From positions 1-32,821 of the IMG/VR virus record IMGVR_UViG_3300042197_004933: a DNA stretch of 32,821 nucleotides; one strand, 5' to 3'. The translations under genes were made by a program, and so were the position numbers. The stretch comes from a virus. Under the pieces are notes generated by a model that saw only the letters and a program-made list of their open reading frames with translations, ran no database searches and was not told where the DNA came from. Shown piece after piece: positions 1-29,462 of the stretch (positions within the stretch are counted from its first letter, which is position 1; each line of letters begins with the position of its first letter).

Positions 1-1233
1 TCATTGTTTTACCAATTCTAAGACGTAGCGTCCTTTGTCAGCAAATCCTAAATTTCTAGTGTACTTAAAACCTGAAAATGTAGATTGCAAGTAACCTACC
101 AACTCTTCAAGCGAACTAAACGACCATCCTGTCGTGTCGATCCAGTGGCCATTGACAGGCTGCTTTCCGTTTTCAACGAGTCTGGTCTCTATGATTATTC
201 TATTGCAAGACTCCACTATCTTCTTTGCGTTTACTTCTGGCTGTCTGGTGTGATGAAAAACCGAGAACAGCATGATGGTGTCGTATTTGTCTAATTTTTC
301 GACATAATCCAAATCCATGCAGGAGTATTCGATGTCTTTTCCTATGATGTTGGAAACCATCTTTGCTCCGACGACAATGTGAGGATCGTTATCGACTCCC
401 GTGACTTTGCAACCTCTGTCGTGTAGATACTCACACAGGAGACCTGCATTACATCCTACGTCAAGTACTCTCTCTCCGTGAGAAAACGCTACAGTGTCCA
501 AAATCTTGGAACGAGTGTCCAGACTTCTCGAACCAATCGCTACAACGTCTTTAGTCTGAATCGTGTGATATATTCCACTTTGGCTATTTGTCGTCTTTTG
601 AAGCTTGAAGACCGACGTCTTAGAAAGATCTAATGCATCGTCTATAAAAATTCTCGGGAAATATTCTCTTGCGGCGCTTGGAAAGTGTCTTAACCAATTT
701 CCAAAACCATATCGATCTTTGTCGTCTTTGTCACAAAAAGCAAAGAATTCTCTATTGGAAGAATCGGTCAAGTCTTTTGACAAATTGAGAGACTGATCGT
801 AGTCTATCAAAACGCAAATTCCTGTGTTTGGGTTAAATCTGACATTTGACGGCTTTATGTCACCTTGATAGACGCCAAGTTTCTTCTGCTCTATTATCGA
901 CAAAGCTAAGTCAAACAGTGAGTAATTCTCATTGCTTTCACAATATTCTTCGATTATGTACTCCAAAGTCTCTGGTAGTTCTCTTCCTGTCTCTATCGCA
1001 AGGAAAGACTTGAGGACGATTCCGTGTTCATATACTTTGGGGCAAGACTGACATCCTCTGCTGTTGAGGTATGCCATGGTTTCGAACTCTTCTTTTAGTG
1101 TCTTTGCCTTCCTTGGATTTACTAGGATAGGAACTTTTAGGAGATATCTTCCGGTCGCGTCTATCGATGTGACTGTTTCTCTTCTGTCGTTCAAGAAGAA
1201 CTTGTTAAAACTTAAACTATCAATGAGGCTCAT
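1..1233 (-). CDS. Kinase-methyltransferase fusion, WbdD-like (domains in reverse order)
   Basis: A 410-residue protein with two catalytic domains. The N-terminal half is a protein-kinase-like fold: Lys33 in YLLKVP, Glu49 in the presumed alpha-C helix, catalytic loop GDIKPSN with Asp125, Lys127 and Asn130, and a DFG-equivalent LIDYD at Asp144. The C-terminal half is a class I SAM methyltransferase: motif I VLDVGCNAG at 257-265, acidic GVDND at 279-283, and SVFHH at 324-328. An ATG at 1350 exists, but the ATG at 1233 is preferred: it overlaps the upstream stop (ATGA) and has AAGGAA about 8 bases upstream. The same activity pair occurs in WbdD, which phosphorylates then methylates the end of O9a polymannose; there the methyltransferase comes first. 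Being last in a glycosyltransferase operon supports glycan capping, but this is inferred. A small-molecule kinase/methylase is an alternative. The stop codon lies on bases 1-3, so the gene is complete. Confidence 0.82.
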   Translation of the reverse strand: MSLIDSLSFNKFFLNDRRETVTSIDATGRYLLKVPILVNPRKAKTLKEEFETMAYLNSRGCQSCPKVYEHGIVLKSFLAIETGRELPETLEYIIEEYCESNENYSLFDLALSIIEQKKLGVYQGDIKPSNVRFNPNTGICVLIDYDQSLNLSKDLTDSSNREFFAFCDKDDKDRYGFGNWLRHFPSAAREYFPRIFIDDALDLSKTSVFKLQKTTNSQSGIYHTIQTKDVVAIGSRSLDTRSKILDTVAFSHGERVLDVGCNAGLLCEYLHDRGCKVTGVDNDPHIVVGAKMVSNIIGKDIEYSCMDLDYVEKLDKYDTIMLFSVFHHTRQPEVNAKKIVESCNRIIIETRLVENGKQPVNGHWIDTTGWSFSSLEELVGYLQSTFSGFKYTRNLGFADKGRYVLELVKQ

Positions 1234-1904
1234 AAGTCTGTTCCTTTCGCAAGAAGGACTCTGTTGGGTTGACCACTTGCAGTCAAGCCAAATTCCAAGA
1301 CCATCTTCTCGTCTAGATGTCTTGACAGAAGATTTAAATCGTGAAAGCAACCGAACCTCTTGTCGTAGTCGTCAAAAGCCCAAATTGTGTTTTTGTGTGT
1401 TCTGGGAAGAATAGAAATGAAGTCTTCAACTACGGCATAGTGATCATGAGACCCATCTATCCAGCAAAAGTCTACTGTGTGGTCTAACTTGTCTCTTAGA
1501 GCGCTAGACATCTTCAGAGAATCTCCTAAGAAGAATTCTAGGTTCTTATATTCACCAAAGAGACTGTCTCTCTCGTCCTTTATGTCACATGTAAAGACTC
1601 TAGAGTCACTAAATACGTGAGAGAATATTATCGACTGCATTCCTTGAGCGGTACCGACTTCAACGAAGTTTCTCATAGAGAGTCCTTCTGAGATGGCGAC
1701 GTCAGCGACGTGCACCAGCATTTCAGGCCTTTTCATGAGACCTTGAATTATGTCATTTCTCTTCTCTTCTTCAAAGATCATGCTATTGTTTAGCTTCTGA
1801 TTCTGTACCGATAAGCTGACTCTGTTCCACAAAGAAGTACATGCCTCTCTGTGATCTTTATTCATGTTCTCAAAGGAATTGGCGCACTTCTCAAAAAAAC
1901 TCAT
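1230..1904 (-). CDS. Class I SAM-dependent methyltransferase (Methyltransf_24-like)
   Basis: A 224-residue single-domain Rossmann methyltransferase. Motif I is FVEVGTAQG (80-88). The acidic residue after strand 2 is in TCDIKDE (105-111). WIDGSHDH (148-155) and WAFDDYD (175-181) are typical of the Methyltransf_24/cephalosporin hydroxylase-like group, in which the Asp/His cluster often binds a metal. The start at 1904 shares one base with the upstream TAA (TAATG) and has a GAGG site. It overlaps the kinase-methyltransferase gene by four bases, so the two are probably translationally coupled. Its operon suggests sugar O-methylation, though no acceptor can be read from sequence. It resembles the protein at 28866-29462 in the IDGxH and DDY motifs. 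Confidence 0.82.
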   Translation of the reverse strand: MSFFEKCANSFENMNKDHREACTSLWNRVSLSVQNQKLNNSMIFEEEKRNDIIQGLMKRPEMLVHVADVAISEGLSMRNFVEVGTAQGMQSIIFSHVFSDSRVFTCDIKDERDSLFGEYKNLEFFLGDSLKMSSALRDKLDHTVDFCWIDGSHDHYAVVEDFISILPRTHKNTIWAFDDYDKRFGCFHDLNLLSRHLDEKMVLEFGLTASGQPNRVLLAKGTDL

Positions 1905-2263
1905 TACGACCTCTTCTTTACTTCATAAATGAAAATGGGTGCAAAAGGAGTACCACTGAACATAGTTCCGAGCATCGCGAGCTCTTTCGTAGTCACATTC
2001 TCAAGCTTAGCTCTTTTATCAAAGATGTTTGGATCAAGCTCTTCTCTGTCGTTTATCTTTACAGAGTCGTAGTACATTTGTGCAACAAGATTTGCAGCTT
2101 CGTTAGAAAGCGGTATCTCAGACTCTTGAAAAACTTCAACGATACAATTGAATATGTCTGCATAGATGGAGATGCAAGTTGATGAAGTCAGTTTACTTTC
2201 TTTGTGAACTTCTAGTTTTGAGACTAGAAGTTTGCTAAGTGATTCGTGGATCTGTTTCTTCAT
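1904..2263 (-). CDS. Small hypothetical protein in glycan operon
   Basis: A 119-residue protein of unknown function. It is predicted to be mostly helical, with no signal peptide, membrane segment or recognised catalytic motif. The most distinctive part is the C-terminal stretch TTKELAMLGTMFSGTPFAPI (about residues 91-110), which looks like a conserved core. The ATG overlaps the preceding glycosyltransferase stop (ATGA) and has a strong GAGGT site 4-5 bases upstream, so expression is well supported. Embedding between sugar-transfer genes and methyltransferases suggests an accessory role in the same pathway, but its size and lack of motifs would also fit an unrelated phage protein carried in the operon. 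Confidence 0.72.
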   Translation of the reverse strand: MKKQIHESLSKLLVSKLEVHKESKLTSSTCISIYADIFNCIVEVFQESEIPLSNEAANLVAQMYYDSVKINDREELDPNIFDKRAKLENVTTKELAMLGTMFSGTPFAPIFIYEVKKRS

Positions 2264-3159
2264 TTTACCTCACAGATAGACATGAGTGCCTCTGTATAGA
2301 GCGAGGCGACAAAGCCTATGTCAATATTAGACTGTATATCGTTCTTGTATGTTAGTTCAGGATTTAGCGGAGGTGGTCTATAAAGTTCCAATGGAGACAT
2401 GTCCCACTCAATATCTTGTACAATCGTAGCATTCTGTCCTGCTACTTCTTTCGTTCCTCCCGATGAAGACACCACTATGTGACAACCGCTAGCTCTTGCA
2501 TCGACGACGACATTTGGACAATGATCTAAAAATGCAAGGTGTAAGAAAACTTTTGATCTCTTGTACAGAGATATGCACTTATCCCATGGAAGATGTCCCG
2601 CATAGAGTATGCGAGAGTCTTTGACAATATAGTCTGGGTTTTCTCCTGCTACGACTAGACATGCATCTTTGGGAGCTTTCTCCAAAAAATATCTTACATT
2701 TTCCTTAAGACGCTTGTGAGGTCTCCAAGAAGATGAGCACGACCACACTTCAGAGAACTTATCAAGTTCTGCTGCCTGCATGGGAGATATTTTGTCGAGA
2801 CACTTCATACATGTTCCATTGTTTATCACAACAGAATTCTTGGCAATACCGAAGTACTTCTCTGTCAACGTCTTATTGAATTGAGACTGAAATATTACGA
2901 TATCAGACAGTTCATAAGACCTTCTTAGAGGCTCATTCAGTGCTTTCCAATCTTGTATTGTATTGAAATAAATGCCATCAAGCCTGAGTGCCAAGGGAGC
3001 TAATTTTCTGCTAGCAGCTATAAAAGAAAGCTGAACATCTGGTTCTTCTTCTACGAAACTGTGAAGTCTAAGATTTTCTATCTCTAGCTTTAAACGTTTA
3101 CCAAAAGAATTCGGCCCCGACGAAGAATTCAAATTGACATTGTCTAAGAGTATCTTCAC
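2260..3159 (-). CDS. Glycosyltransferase, GT4-like (GT-B fold)
   Basis: A 299-residue GT-B protein. The N-terminal acceptor-side domain has SGPNSFGKRL (14-23), a glycine-containing loop usual in GT4 enzymes. The C-terminal nucleotide-sugar domain has LVVAGENPD (168-176), ILYAGHLPWD (184-193) and a donor-binding segment at 213-241 (HCPNVVVDARASG, then SSGGTKEVAG). The usual donor-site Glu is Asp220 here, an odd but conservative change. The start is GTG at 3159, overlapping the previous stop as GTGA, with an AGGT-type ribosome site about 8-10 bases upstream. At about 300 residues it is shorter than common GT4 enzymes (350-400). Donor and acceptor sugars cannot be deduced. It lies in the coupled operon 5833-1. 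Confidence 0.85.
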   Translation of the reverse strand: MKILLDNVNLNSSSGPNSFGKRLKLEIENLRLHSFVEEEPDVQLSFIAASRKLAPLALRLDGIYFNTIQDWKALNEPLRRSYELSDIVIFQSQFNKTLTEKYFGIAKNSVVINNGTCMKCLDKISPMQAAELDKFSEVWSCSSSWRPHKRLKENVRYFLEKAPKDACLVVAGENPDYIVKDSRILYAGHLPWDKCISLYKRSKVFLHLAFLDHCPNVVVDARASGCHIVVSSSGGTKEVAGQNATIVQDIEWDMSPLELYRPPPLNPELTYKNDIQSNIDIGFVASLYTEALMSICEVK

Positions 3160-3899
3160 TTGACAAAACCTCGTTCTCTTATTCTCTCTGCAGACATTTT
3201 TTGTCTGTGTGACCTCTCGTTATTGAACACAAACTTATTGGTAAGATCAATGTTGTAATGGTAACCAAGAATAGGAACAAAATGTAACTTCTTTCCTTCT
3301 AGAAGAGACAGATGCATCATTGGAAGAAAAATAGCTTGATCACATGCAATCATAATGTATTCACCGTTGTCATCTCGAAAATTGGCATCTGGGACTTTCT
3401 TGAGTTGACCGCATCTAAAAGTTTTCAAATGACTAGATACCCATGGATGCTGATAGACAGTCTGCCCTGGTTTCAAGTTCATAGGACCAGATATGTTTTG
3501 CGTCGTGTAGCTCCACCTTTGTGCGGTCCATGCTACTGCAATGTCATCTTCTTGATAGACTTGGTTTAATACAAAAAGTAGGTCGTTCTCTGTCAACCAG
3601 TCTCCTCCATCAAGTCTGCAAACTACGTCTTCGTCGTCAATGTACTTGATAGAATTGAGAGTATTTCTAACTTCACCTTGCTTTGTTTCGTTGTCAACGA
3701 GAGTGAATTTTTCCCTGTTCTTTTTTGGAAGAGAGTCACAGATTTCTCTTACAAGATTTTCTGTGCCATCGGTCGACATGTCGTTTATTAGAACAGCTCT
3801 CCAGTTGTCATAACTCTGAGACAGCATGGAAAATATTGTTTTTTCTATGTCTTCTATACAATTGAAGTATGGAATTACGAAAACGAATTTATTGATCAC
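3156..3899 (-). CDS. Glycosyltransferase family 2 (GT-A fold)
   Basis: A 247-residue GT2 enzyme. The first strand FVFVIPYFN (5-13) runs directly from the start, INDMSTDGT (38-46) is the nucleotide-binding turn, and CRLDGGDW (94-101) holds the DxD-like metal/nucleotide site. HPWVSSHLKTFR (151-162) is the acceptor-side motif seen in many GT2 enzymes. The start is GTG at 3899, giving a GTGA overlap with the upstream stop. No later Met would preserve the first strand. The ribosome site is weak (AAGAAAG), so translation probably depends on coupling to the fused glycosyltransferase. There is no membrane segment, so the enzyme is presumably cytosolic. The sugar is unknown. Confidence 0.88.
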   Translation of the reverse strand: MINKFVFVIPYFNCIEDIEKTIFSMLSQSYDNWRAVLINDMSTDGTENLVREICDSLPKKNREKFTLVDNETKQGEVRNTLNSIKYIDDEDVVCRLDGGDWLTENDLLFVLNQVYQEDDIAVAWTAQRWSYTTQNISGPMNLKPGQTVYQHPWVSSHLKTFRCGQLKKVPDANFRDDNGEYIMIACDQAIFLPMMHLSLLEGKKLHFVPILGYHYNIDLTNKFVFNNERSHRQKMSAERIRERGFVK

Positions 3900-5833
3900 G
3901 ATTCTGCTTTCTTGAAAAGAAACAGCTGAGTCATGTAAGAAGGTTCATTCTTCTTCAACTTCACCCAAGGCGTGGGTTTATTGAAGTCTATTCTGTCATG
4001 AAAGATCCAACCACCCATTTCATTTTTCATCCTAGCAGCCATGTTTCTAATCTCGTCGTCACTGACGTCCGACCACTTCTTGTCGAAGAACTTGTTGTTT
4101 TCAGGAACATCTTCTTGCACTTGATTATAGAGACTAGTCCAATGTTTTGACCAGAAATTCTTGTATGTGTGAATCTTTCTCTCTAGATCGTACCAAGAAT
4201 AGTGATAAACGCCTGGTACGTTCTCAACGACATTATTCATCCAATTTTCGTATGCCACTAGAGCATCCTTGTTCCCCATGAGAGCATGCCGGCGAGCATT
4301 CTCCACTTCATTGTTGTAAAAAGTAACATACGGAACGTTCTCTAGAGTATCGGAGTAGATGTAGTCGTCTCCGTCAGATCCAGCAGAGTACATCGTACCT
4401 TCAGCGTCAAATCTTCTATGACTTTTTGGAAGACCATGAGTTATCTTTGGATTATTTCTGCTGAGACGCCATTTCCATGGATTGACGTCGACTCTAATTT
4501 TGTCACTTCCACCCCAATACTCTATTACAGGAAGAGCTATGAGATCGACTCCTTTGGGGAAATTTTTTGCTAGATCTATTATCTTCAGTGCGTCGTCCTC
4601 ATGGACAACTTCGTCAATGTCTACTTGCCAACAGAATTCTCCTGTGCACTTCTTTCTCGCTTCTGCTTTTTGCTGACCGTTGAAGAGAGCAAATCTCTTG
4701 TCATCCCAGTCTCTGGTGAACTGGAATGGTTTTACTCTTGGATCTATCGACTGTATCTCTAGAAGACGCTCCCATGTACCGTCTGTAGACCCTCCGTCTA
4801 CAACTACAACTTCATTACAGAAAGCTAAGAGAGACTTAATAGACTGCTCCCAAGGATATTTCTGCTCTATGCAATTTCTGGTCTGTGTATAACCGCTTAT
4901 TGTAGGTTTGTAGTCCATTATTTTACTAATTGCCTTCCAAAAAAGATCAGGTGTCGTCGACAGATAGTCTTCTATCAAAGATACGTCATCTGTCGAGAAC
5001 CATTCTTCATCTTTATGTTGAACATGTTCATTTATGTGAAGCTTGCATCCAAGAAGTTTAGCTTCTATTACCATCCTTGGGCAAGTGTCTCCGCCCGATG
5101 GAAGATAGACAAATCCTTCCGATGTTGCCAGCTTGGCTAGCAATTTTTCATAGGGGACGTCCCAGACCACTTCATAATCTTTTTTGTTGACTTCACACCA
5201 ATTCTTTGCCGACTCGAATCCTTTCACCCAGGACTGAGATCCTAAGACAATCCAGCCTTTTCTGTCCTCTATCTTCACTGTCTCTCTCAAGACTTTAAGC
5301 ATTCCGAGAGTCTTCTTGGAAAAGACAGAAGACAGAACAATGTTGTCTTTTTCCGAGAGGAAAGGAAAGAGTGTGTGGTACTTTTCTTTCTGTTTCTCCG
5401 ACATCCACCATAAAGCTTTTGAACCGTAGTAGAAAGCTGAAACTAACTTTCCATTCATTTGTTCGTGACAGTCGCATTTCTGACCGGTAGCGACTTCATG
5501 TTTTTCTGGGGACCTGAACTTGCAGTACTTGTAATCGTACTCTAGGATTGAATACTTTATGTTTGCAACGATGCTTGGTATCAGCTCTGGATTAAGTTGA
5601 GAAAAATTACCAAACAACCAGAACTTCCCTGCTCCTTGTGAGAGTGCTGCAAGGTTAACATTTCTTGAATGTAATTTCTGTATTTTGAAGGGTGACTCGG
5701 AGATTATTGACTCAGAGGTCATCTCTGCACCTCCTGCATAGTCTTCTACAAAAAGATCAGCTACAAAAATTACTTCTGCATTATCATCGATGACTTTGTT
5801 GGGATTAACGAACACACTGTCAGAAAAATTCAT
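3896..5833 (-). CDS. Bifunctional glycosyltransferase: GT-B (GT4-like) domain fused to GT2 domain
   Basis: A 645-residue protein and the first gene of the minus-strand glycan operon. Residues 20-300 form a GT-B-like domain: VIFVADLFVEDYAGGAEM (21-38), GWIVLGSQSWVKG (193-205) and donor-site segment PSGGDTCPRMVIEAKLLG (245-262). From about 311 a GT2 domain begins, with TISGYTQTRN (311-320), VVVVDGGSTDGT (342-353) and a DxD motif in QVDIDE (Asp405, Asp407). The C-terminal ~150 residues are rich in Trp, Tyr and Asn and may form the acceptor site. An unusual Cys/His patch (Cys104, His112, Cys120, Cys122, His123) could bind metal. One polypeptide with two transfer activities would add two successive sugars. 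The start at 5833 lacks a strong ribosome site. Confidence 0.85.
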   Translation of the reverse strand: MNFSDSVFVNPNKVIDDNAEVIFVADLFVEDYAGGAEMTSESIISESPFKIQKLHSRNVNLAALSQGAGKFWLFGNFSQLNPELIPSIVANIKYSILEYDYKYCKFRSPEKHEVATGQKCDCHEQMNGKLVSAFYYGSKALWWMSEKQKEKYHTLFPFLSEKDNIVLSSVFSKKTLGMLKVLRETVKIEDRKGWIVLGSQSWVKGFESAKNWCEVNKKDYEVVWDVPYEKLLAKLATSEGFVYLPSGGDTCPRMVIEAKLLGCKLHINEHVQHKDEEWFSTDDVSLIEDYLSTTPDLFWKAISKIMDYKPTISGYTQTRNCIEQKYPWEQSIKSLLAFCNEVVVVDGGSTDGTWERLLEIQSIDPRVKPFQFTRDWDDKRFALFNGQQKAEARKKCTGEFCWQVDIDEVVHEDDALKIIDLAKNFPKGVDLIALPVIEYWGGSDKIRVDVNPWKWRLSRNNPKITHGLPKSHRRFDAEGTMYSAGSDGDDYIYSDTLENVPYVTFYNNEVENARRHALMGNKDALVAYENWMNNVVENVPGVYHYSWYDLERKIHTYKNFWSKHWTSLYNQVQEDVPENNKFFDKKWSDVSDDEIRNMAARMKNEMGGWIFHDRIDFNKPTPWVKLKKNEPSYMTQLFLFKKAES

Positions 5834-28865: not shown

Positions 28866-29462
28866 ATGGCATATCATGGTTACATACCTGGAATGAAAGG
28901 GTACCTAAGCGAGATAACACATCCTAGAGTGTTGGAGATAGGACTAGACAGAGGAGTTACTACCATTCCGGTAATAGCTTTCATGACACGCTTTCATAAG
29001 ACTTTTGATTTCTTAGGAATAGACGTGCTTCTTCAAGAATCATTAATCATCACTCTCAATAATTTGGATCTGAAGCAAGGACATAATGTCAGCTTAAAAC
29101 AAAAGAACAGTCTGGAAGAGATTCCGGAAATTGTTAAAAGAGGAGAAAAATTTGATCTCGTTTTGATCGATGGTGACCACAACTATTACACTGTCGCAGA
29201 AGAACTGCGTCATCTCAACGACATTACTCATGACAAGAGTCTGGTTATCATAGACGACTATGAGGGAAGGTGGTCAGAAAAAGATCTTTGGTATTCCGAC
29301 AGAGAAGAATACAAGAAAGTTGAGATCGCAACAAAGTCTATCACTACTGACAAGCACGGAGTAAAACCAGCAGTCGACGAATTCTTGGATTCTAATCCGC
29401 AGTGGTTTAAGTCGGCACCGATACATGGTGAACCTGTCGTCTTGTCGAAGAGAAAATTGTAA
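28866..29462 (+). CDS. Class I SAM-dependent methyltransferase-like protein
   Basis: A 198-residue Rossmann methyltransferase. Motif I is VLEIGLDRG (22-30), the post-strand-2 acidic residue is Asp53 in GIDVLL, and LVLIDGDHNYY (98-108) and VIIDDYEG (127-134) recall the Methyltransf_24 group and the operon protein at 1230-1904. The C-terminal 60 residues are charged and may form a lid. The substrate is unknown: glycan, small metabolite and protein are all possible. The AT-rich gene is wedged between GC-rich nuclease and resolvase genes, so it looks like an insertion relative to them. The start lacks a good ribosome site. Its TAA overlaps the next ATG (TAATG). Confidence 0.78.
   Translation: MAYHGYIPGMKGYLSEITHPRVLEIGLDRGVTTIPVIAFMTRFHKTFDFLGIDVLLQESLIITLNNLDLKQGHNVSLKQKNSLEEIPEIVKRGEKFDLVLIDGDHNYYTVAEELRHLNDITHDKSLVIIDDYEGRWSEKDLWYSDREEYKKVEIATKSITTDKHGVKPAVDEFLDSNPQWFKSAPIHGEPVVLSKRKL

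Follow-up and report, generated by a model that had tools for sequence, protein, structure and literature searches.

A 32.8-kb IMG/VR virus record from an aquatic bacteriophage (IMGVR_UViG_3300042197_004933; the whole of this stretch is referred to here as the window) encodes a 410-residue protein, P0001, in which a predicted kinase is followed by a class I methyltransferase. We propose that this fusion adds a methyl-phosphate cap to a glycan made by the phage operon to which it belongs, and that the glycan is carried by a virion protein, an explanation to which, taken as a whole, we give a probability of about 0.5. Its chemical core, the phosphorylation of a glycan followed by methylation of that phosphate, is well supported by sequence. 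A sequence-only reading of the window had likened the pair, with the kinase placed first and within a phage-made glycan pathway, to the O-antigen enzyme WbdD, and the conservation of the WbdD phosphate pocket in the phage protein supports that comparison.

The kinase-methyltransferase fusion and its relatives

WbdD from Escherichia coli HS (locus tag ECHS_RS10775, 708 amino acids, encoded between wbdA and wzt) was used as the reference. The methyltransferase half of the fusion aligned to it using hhalign with an E-value of 1.6e-10 over 137 columns, including the N-terminal cap. As UbiG scored equally against this half, though only over 83 core columns, score alone is uninformative about kinship with WbdD, and pocket residues were used as the discriminator instead. 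In WbdD the phosphate pocket comprises Y16, R31, R36, H132, H133, and R203, and mutation of Y16, H132, H133, or R203 abolishes methylation while phosphorylation is kept (PMC3482155). All six positions are retained in the fusion family: Y222, R236, R241, H327, and H328 are invariant, and R203 corresponds to a lysine or arginine at position 400, a match that rests on global alignment. Forced global alignment of control methyltransferases recovered two of the six residues in UbiG, two in CmoB, and one in CmoA. The S-adenosylmethionine (SAM) motif and R402 are likewise invariant in this half of the family.

Pfam searches with the kinase half remained below detection (APH, E = 0.07). Because a Foldseek search with the AlphaFold2 model of the whole protein (predicted local distance difference test score, pLDDT, 89) was dominated by the methyltransferase half, the kinase half was folded separately, giving a model with a pLDDT of 87. 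Nearly all of the 50 best PDB matches listed for this model were protein kinases (CMGC, CK2, CK1, Pim, GAK, RIO2), and the best profile match was CK2 alpha (E = 0.0018). The modelled fold thus resembles that of a eukaryotic-type protein kinase. The sequence-only reading had regarded a closest match to aminoglycoside kinases as fatal to its proposal; protein kinases match best, and fold and profile together rule out an APH-type enzyme. K33, E49, D125, and D144 are invariant in ten of ten sequences, and N130 in eight, being replaced in the bacterial members L101 and L107. By residue conservation and by its model this half is a real kinase, and the phage proteins are unlikely to be pseudokinases since their catalytic residues are kept. 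The catalytic loops of the phage and WbdD kinases align in register (P = 5e-4; P = 0.17-0.59 for the same comparison with InaA and four unrelated proteins), pairing D351, N356, and D369 of WbdD with D125, N130, and D144.

WbdD of E. coli O9/O9a and Klebsiella pneumoniae O3 carries the same pair of activities in one protein. Its domains run methyltransferase, kinase, coiled coil, whereas the phage fusion begins with the kinase and ends after the methyltransferase without a coiled coil, and the neighbours of WbdD, the polymerase WbdA and the exporter Wzm/Wzt (seen in E. coli HS), are absent from the phage cluster. Domain order, the missing coiled coil, and neighbours rule out membership of the WbdD family, and on sequence grounds the fusion is probably WbdD-like in chemistry but not a WbdD. 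The chain-length control that the sequence-only reading cited for WbdD is not supported for the phage fusion, as there is no coiled-coil ruler, Wzm/Wzt exporter, polymerase partner, or multi-pass membrane protein. Its argument that the reversed domain order reflects separate assembly of the activities survives for the kinase half, which is only distantly similar to that of WbdD, but not for the methyltransferase half, which looks closely related. ORF6-N of K. pneumoniae O7 is an independent methyltransferase-kinase fusion that terminates chains with a methyl-phosphate end group (PMC11231755), the product predicted for the phage enzyme; its kinase is closest to the aminoglycoside-type AmiN, while that of the phage is protein kinase-like, and its order, methyltransferase-kinase-CBM-coiled coil, also differs from the kinase-first phage fusion. 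No phage system of this kind was found in the literature searched, in agreement with the sequence-only reading.

Samples of genomes were searched for relatives of the fusion, both with a degenerate kinase motif and by alignment. Among viral contigs it is carried by L087 (the same contig as L005), L006, L012, L008, L011, L098, and L007; L006/L012 and L008/L011 are near-identical pairs, leaving five distinct phage sequences besides that of the window, 43-64% identical. The gene is rare in bacteria, with four members in all from order, class, phylum, and family genome samples, each in a metagenome-assembled genome (MAG): L100, L101, L106, and L107. The kinase-first order is the same in these four and in the five further phage sequences, so that the gene pair which the sequence-only reading suggested seeking in other phages does recur. 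In a tree of the ten sequences, which has some long branches, the phages form one clade (97/97) adjoining L106, and the GT41-linked and flagellar members fall outside it. Genes for the fusion, a GT4 enzyme, a 323-residue glycosyltransferase, and WbqC co-occur across the phages, whose genomes are partial, and, reordered, in L106; the exception is L098, which lacks the GT4 and WbqC genes in its available stretch. We found no cultured-phage relatives of the kinase half or of the 645-residue glycosyltransferase that begins the operon, and plasmid matches covered the generic methyltransferase alone.

The phage glycan operon and its proposed pathway

The fusion is the last gene within the window of a minus-strand operon (Table 1), in which successive genes overlap by 4, 4, 4, 1, and 4 bases. 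Intact frames and Pfam assignments bear out the six coupled genes described from sequence; the fusion starts with the ATG at 1233, and its C-terminal half has a Pfam class I methyltransferase match. Chance or misassembly as the origin of the block is ruled out, as the same order recurs in several other viral contigs. The gene for the Methyltransf_24-type protein lies directly upstream of the fusion in every other fusion-bearing phage contig. The N-terminal domain of the 645-residue protein is without a Pfam match, and L096, L097, and L099 match that half only. Pfam and PHROG searches with the 119-residue protein gave no match; 45 homologous phage sequences, located within glycan operons, could be aligned.

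The cluster had been described as spanning positions 1-5833. Its genes are real, but their end is that of the window: IMG/VR contig IMGVR_UViG_3300047481_002212 (L001/G001), 100% identical to the window over 9,542 bp, extends the operon to about 18 genes, about 12 of them past the edge. Proteins read as T4-like baseplate components follow the glycan genes, and then a 2293-residue collagen-like fibre.

Table 1. Genes and domains of the glycan operon, with window coordinates; the last three rows lie beyond the window, on contig L001
Feature	Position	Strand	Assignment or residues
Two-domain glycosyltransferase, 645 aa, first gene of the operon	3896..5833	-	GT-B-like N-terminal domain and GT2 C-terminal domain (Pfam GT2)
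GT2 glycosyltransferase, 247 aa	3156..3899	-	PF00535, E = 1.7e-15
GT-B (GT4-type) glycosyltransferase, 299 aa	2260..3159	-	PF13692/PF00534
119-aa protein of no known family	1904..2263	-	kept across many phage loci
Methyltransf_24-type methyltransferase, 224 aa	1230..1904	-	PF13578, E = 8.9e-12
Kinase-methyltransferase fusion, 410 aa (P0001)	1..1233	-	kinase, about residues 1-212; methyltransferase, about residues 213-410
Kinase half of the fusion	598..1233	-	K33, E49, D125 (YQGDIKPSN), N130, D144 (IDYD)
Methyltransferase half of the fusion, WbdD-type phosphate pocket	4..597	-	Y222, R236, R241, H327, H328, K400
Continuation, sugar transfer			201-aa protein read as methyltransferase-like; two glycosyltransferases; later two more GT4 enzymes
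Continuation, sugar enzymes			CapD-like dehydratase, PIG-L deacetylase, WbqC, GMD, GDP-fucose-synthase-type epimerase, nucleoside diphosphate (NDP)-sugar dehydrogenase
Continuation, other			PD-(D/E)XK nuclease

What is observed are gene content, homologies, conserved catalytic residues, and gene contexts; the reaction and its methyl-phosphate product are inferred from these, and the acceptor most of all. In the pathway that we propose, GMD and GDP-fucose-synthase-type enzymes, the CapD-like dehydratase, and the NDP-sugar dehydrogenase would make nucleotide sugars, the PIG-L deacetylase and WbqC would modify an amino sugar, and seven or so soluble glycosyltransferases would join the sugars. The kinase half would then phosphorylate a hydroxyl of the glycan using adenosine triphosphate, and the methyltransferase half would methylate that phosphate using SAM, giving a methyl-phosphate end group as in WbdD. 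By analogy with flagellin glycosylation, the glycan would be carried by a phage structural protein.

The acceptor and competing explanations

Two of the bacterial relatives are fused to tetratricopeptide repeat (TPR)-GT41 protein O-glycosyltransferases, and flagellar clusters surround two, L100 belonging to both groups. L100 is a single TPR-GT41-kinase-methyltransferase protein adjoining FliW and flagellin-like genes, L107 is a single kinase-methyltransferase-TPR-GT41 protein, and L101 lies in a cluster with flagellin, ManC, GMD, a sulfotransferase, and FlbT. FlmG, an alphaproteobacterial enzyme combining TPR with a GT-B domain, glycosylates flagellin in the cytoplasm and is described with no kinase or methyltransferase domain (PMC7591256), and L100 and L107 resemble such flagellin glycosyltransferases in general type. 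The phage cluster, unlike these TPR-GT41-fused relatives, has no GT41 gene. Because the bacterial relatives are GT41-fused or lie in flagellar clusters, a protein is favoured among the three acceptors proposed from sequence, with DNA and the host surface less likely; by analogy, the glycan would most probably be attached in the cytoplasm to a structural protein of the virion. Mycobacteriophages also encode glycosyltransferases, which modify capsid and tail proteins (as cited in PMC12619734).

Of the 30 relatives in which the first operon gene has an upstream neighbour on the same strand, 17 have a large fibre-like gene directly before it and 10 have PhoH; the fibre-like genes were recognized by composition and, for L035, by an S74 domain. 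This placement, like the absence of predicted membrane proteins from the phage cluster, also favours a protein acceptor. One such gene (L074:4376-9811), immediately upstream of a homologue of the 645-residue protein, encodes a product whose C-terminal domain weakly matches BclA_C (E = 9.5e-5, short of the curated threshold). In the collagen-like fibre noted above (L003:195-7076, on a contig 100% identical to the window where they overlap), threonine is third in 233 of 418 triplets, which recalls O-glycosylated collagen-like proteins. This fibre is an attractive acceptor that we do not claim.

Several observations weigh against a virion-protein glycan capped as in WbdD. No acceptor protein is common to all these phages, the 2293-residue fibre being unseen in the other, partial, contigs. 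L101 (9965-11293), from a flagellar cluster, lacks K127 and N130 (replaced by T and D; GDLTVAD), and its kinase may be inactive or altered. The WbdD kinase substrate residue W355 corresponds to Ser129 in the phage fusion and no counterpart of WbdD Y230 was identified, the alignment not spanning that stretch; the acceptor site of the kinase therefore differs from that of WbdD. Lastly, the presence of a PglK-type ABC transporter (flippase) in the glycan locus of L106, the bacterial neighbour of the phage clade, suggests that the glycan made by that locus is lipid-linked; the GT4, glycosyltransferase, WbqC, and CapD-like genes found there share 28-34% identity with their phage counterparts.

With PIG-L also present, this L106 locus favours a role at the host surface, in which the infecting phage would use the cluster to remodel lipopolysaccharide or capsule, perhaps as a barrier to superinfection, with the fusion capping that polysaccharide. 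An O antigen is also the substrate of WbdD, and loci for O antigens often contain GDP-fucose-type genes. We nevertheless consider this explanation unlikely, as the phage cluster lacks an initiating phosphoglycosyltransferase, flippase, polymerase, ABC exporter, and ligase, and simple hydropathy predicted membrane segments in none of the 18 cluster proteins and found no protein with at least three in six viral records, although borrowing of a host exporter is still conceivable. Also unlikely, in our judgement, is a glycan that sits on hypermodified phage DNA, as sugars on hydroxymethylated bases capped by the fusion. A thymidylate-synthase-family enzyme occurs in 6 of 11 large viral records having the 645-residue glycosyltransferase, and in the five of these enzymes that were examined (G1103, G1104, G1110, G1111, G1113; L130-L134) the substrate-binding Asn is replaced by Asp (A[YN]D[IV]P), which we take to be the deoxycytidine monophosphate hydroxymethylase type. 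This suggests nucleotide hydroxymethylation in the large sister phages, and DNA glycosylation is established for T4 and for RB69 (PMC6024577). However, no such enzyme is found in the other 5 of the 11 large records or in any of the nine kinase-set records (fragments, the window and its near-identical contig included), the bacterial relatives are tied to protein glycosylation, and the deoxysugar, amino-sugar, and fibre-adjacent genes better suit a protein or surface glycan.

The two halves of the fusion might also have other substrates, the kinase acting on a protein or small-molecule precursor and the methyltransferase on a sugar hydroxyl or amine. The kinase fold matches protein kinases and not known sugar kinases, the acceptor residues of the WbdD kinase are not kept, and the methyltransferase core scores UbiG as high as WbdD. 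Retention of the full phosphate pocket makes such substrates unlikely, as does the continued fusion of the halves in both phages and bacteria, which is suggestive of successive reactions on a single substrate.

Variable glycan islands

The 645-residue glycosyltransferase anchors highly variable glycan islands (loci L013-L092) whose interiors are swapped like those of O-antigen loci; its viral relatives among IMG/VR contigs number at least 134, some of them in records of 190-324 kb. The fusion is present in 2 of the 31 loci having the 119-residue gene and sufficient downstream sequence, and NodU-type carbamoyltransferases (PF02543/PF16861) occur in sister islands (L028:18973-20616, L062:19708-21417). 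As the gene content behind the 645-residue gene is variable in this way, the fusion is, judged by gene content, one exchangeable decoration, with carbamoyltransferases an alternative. These islands suggest that phages exchange glycan decorations as bacteria exchange O-antigen genes, which bears on evading recognition and on host binding.

More broadly, and tentatively, phages and a few alphaproteobacteria could share the fusion as a mobile methyl-phosphate capping module for cytoplasmic protein O-glycans (on flagellin in the bacteria, on tail or fibre proteins in the phages), where it would be one interchangeable decoration among several. Methyl-phosphate ends from kinase-methyltransferase fusions have been described as O-antigen chain stoppers (E. 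coli O9a/K. pneumoniae O3; K. pneumoniae O7), and in the literature searched no description was found of an O-glycan methyl-phosphate as a post-translational modification in phages or bacteria. If our explanation is correct, this chemistry would extend from O antigens to protein glycosylation and leave a mass signature of +93.98 Da on virions and flagellins.

Elsewhere in the window, phage-type genes encode ClpP, a DinG-like helicase, PIN-PhoH, a TnsA-like nuclease, and a calcineurin-like (SbcD-type) phosphoesterase, and a second Methyltransf_24 gene (28866-29462) lies among nuclease and replication genes, distant from the glycan cluster.

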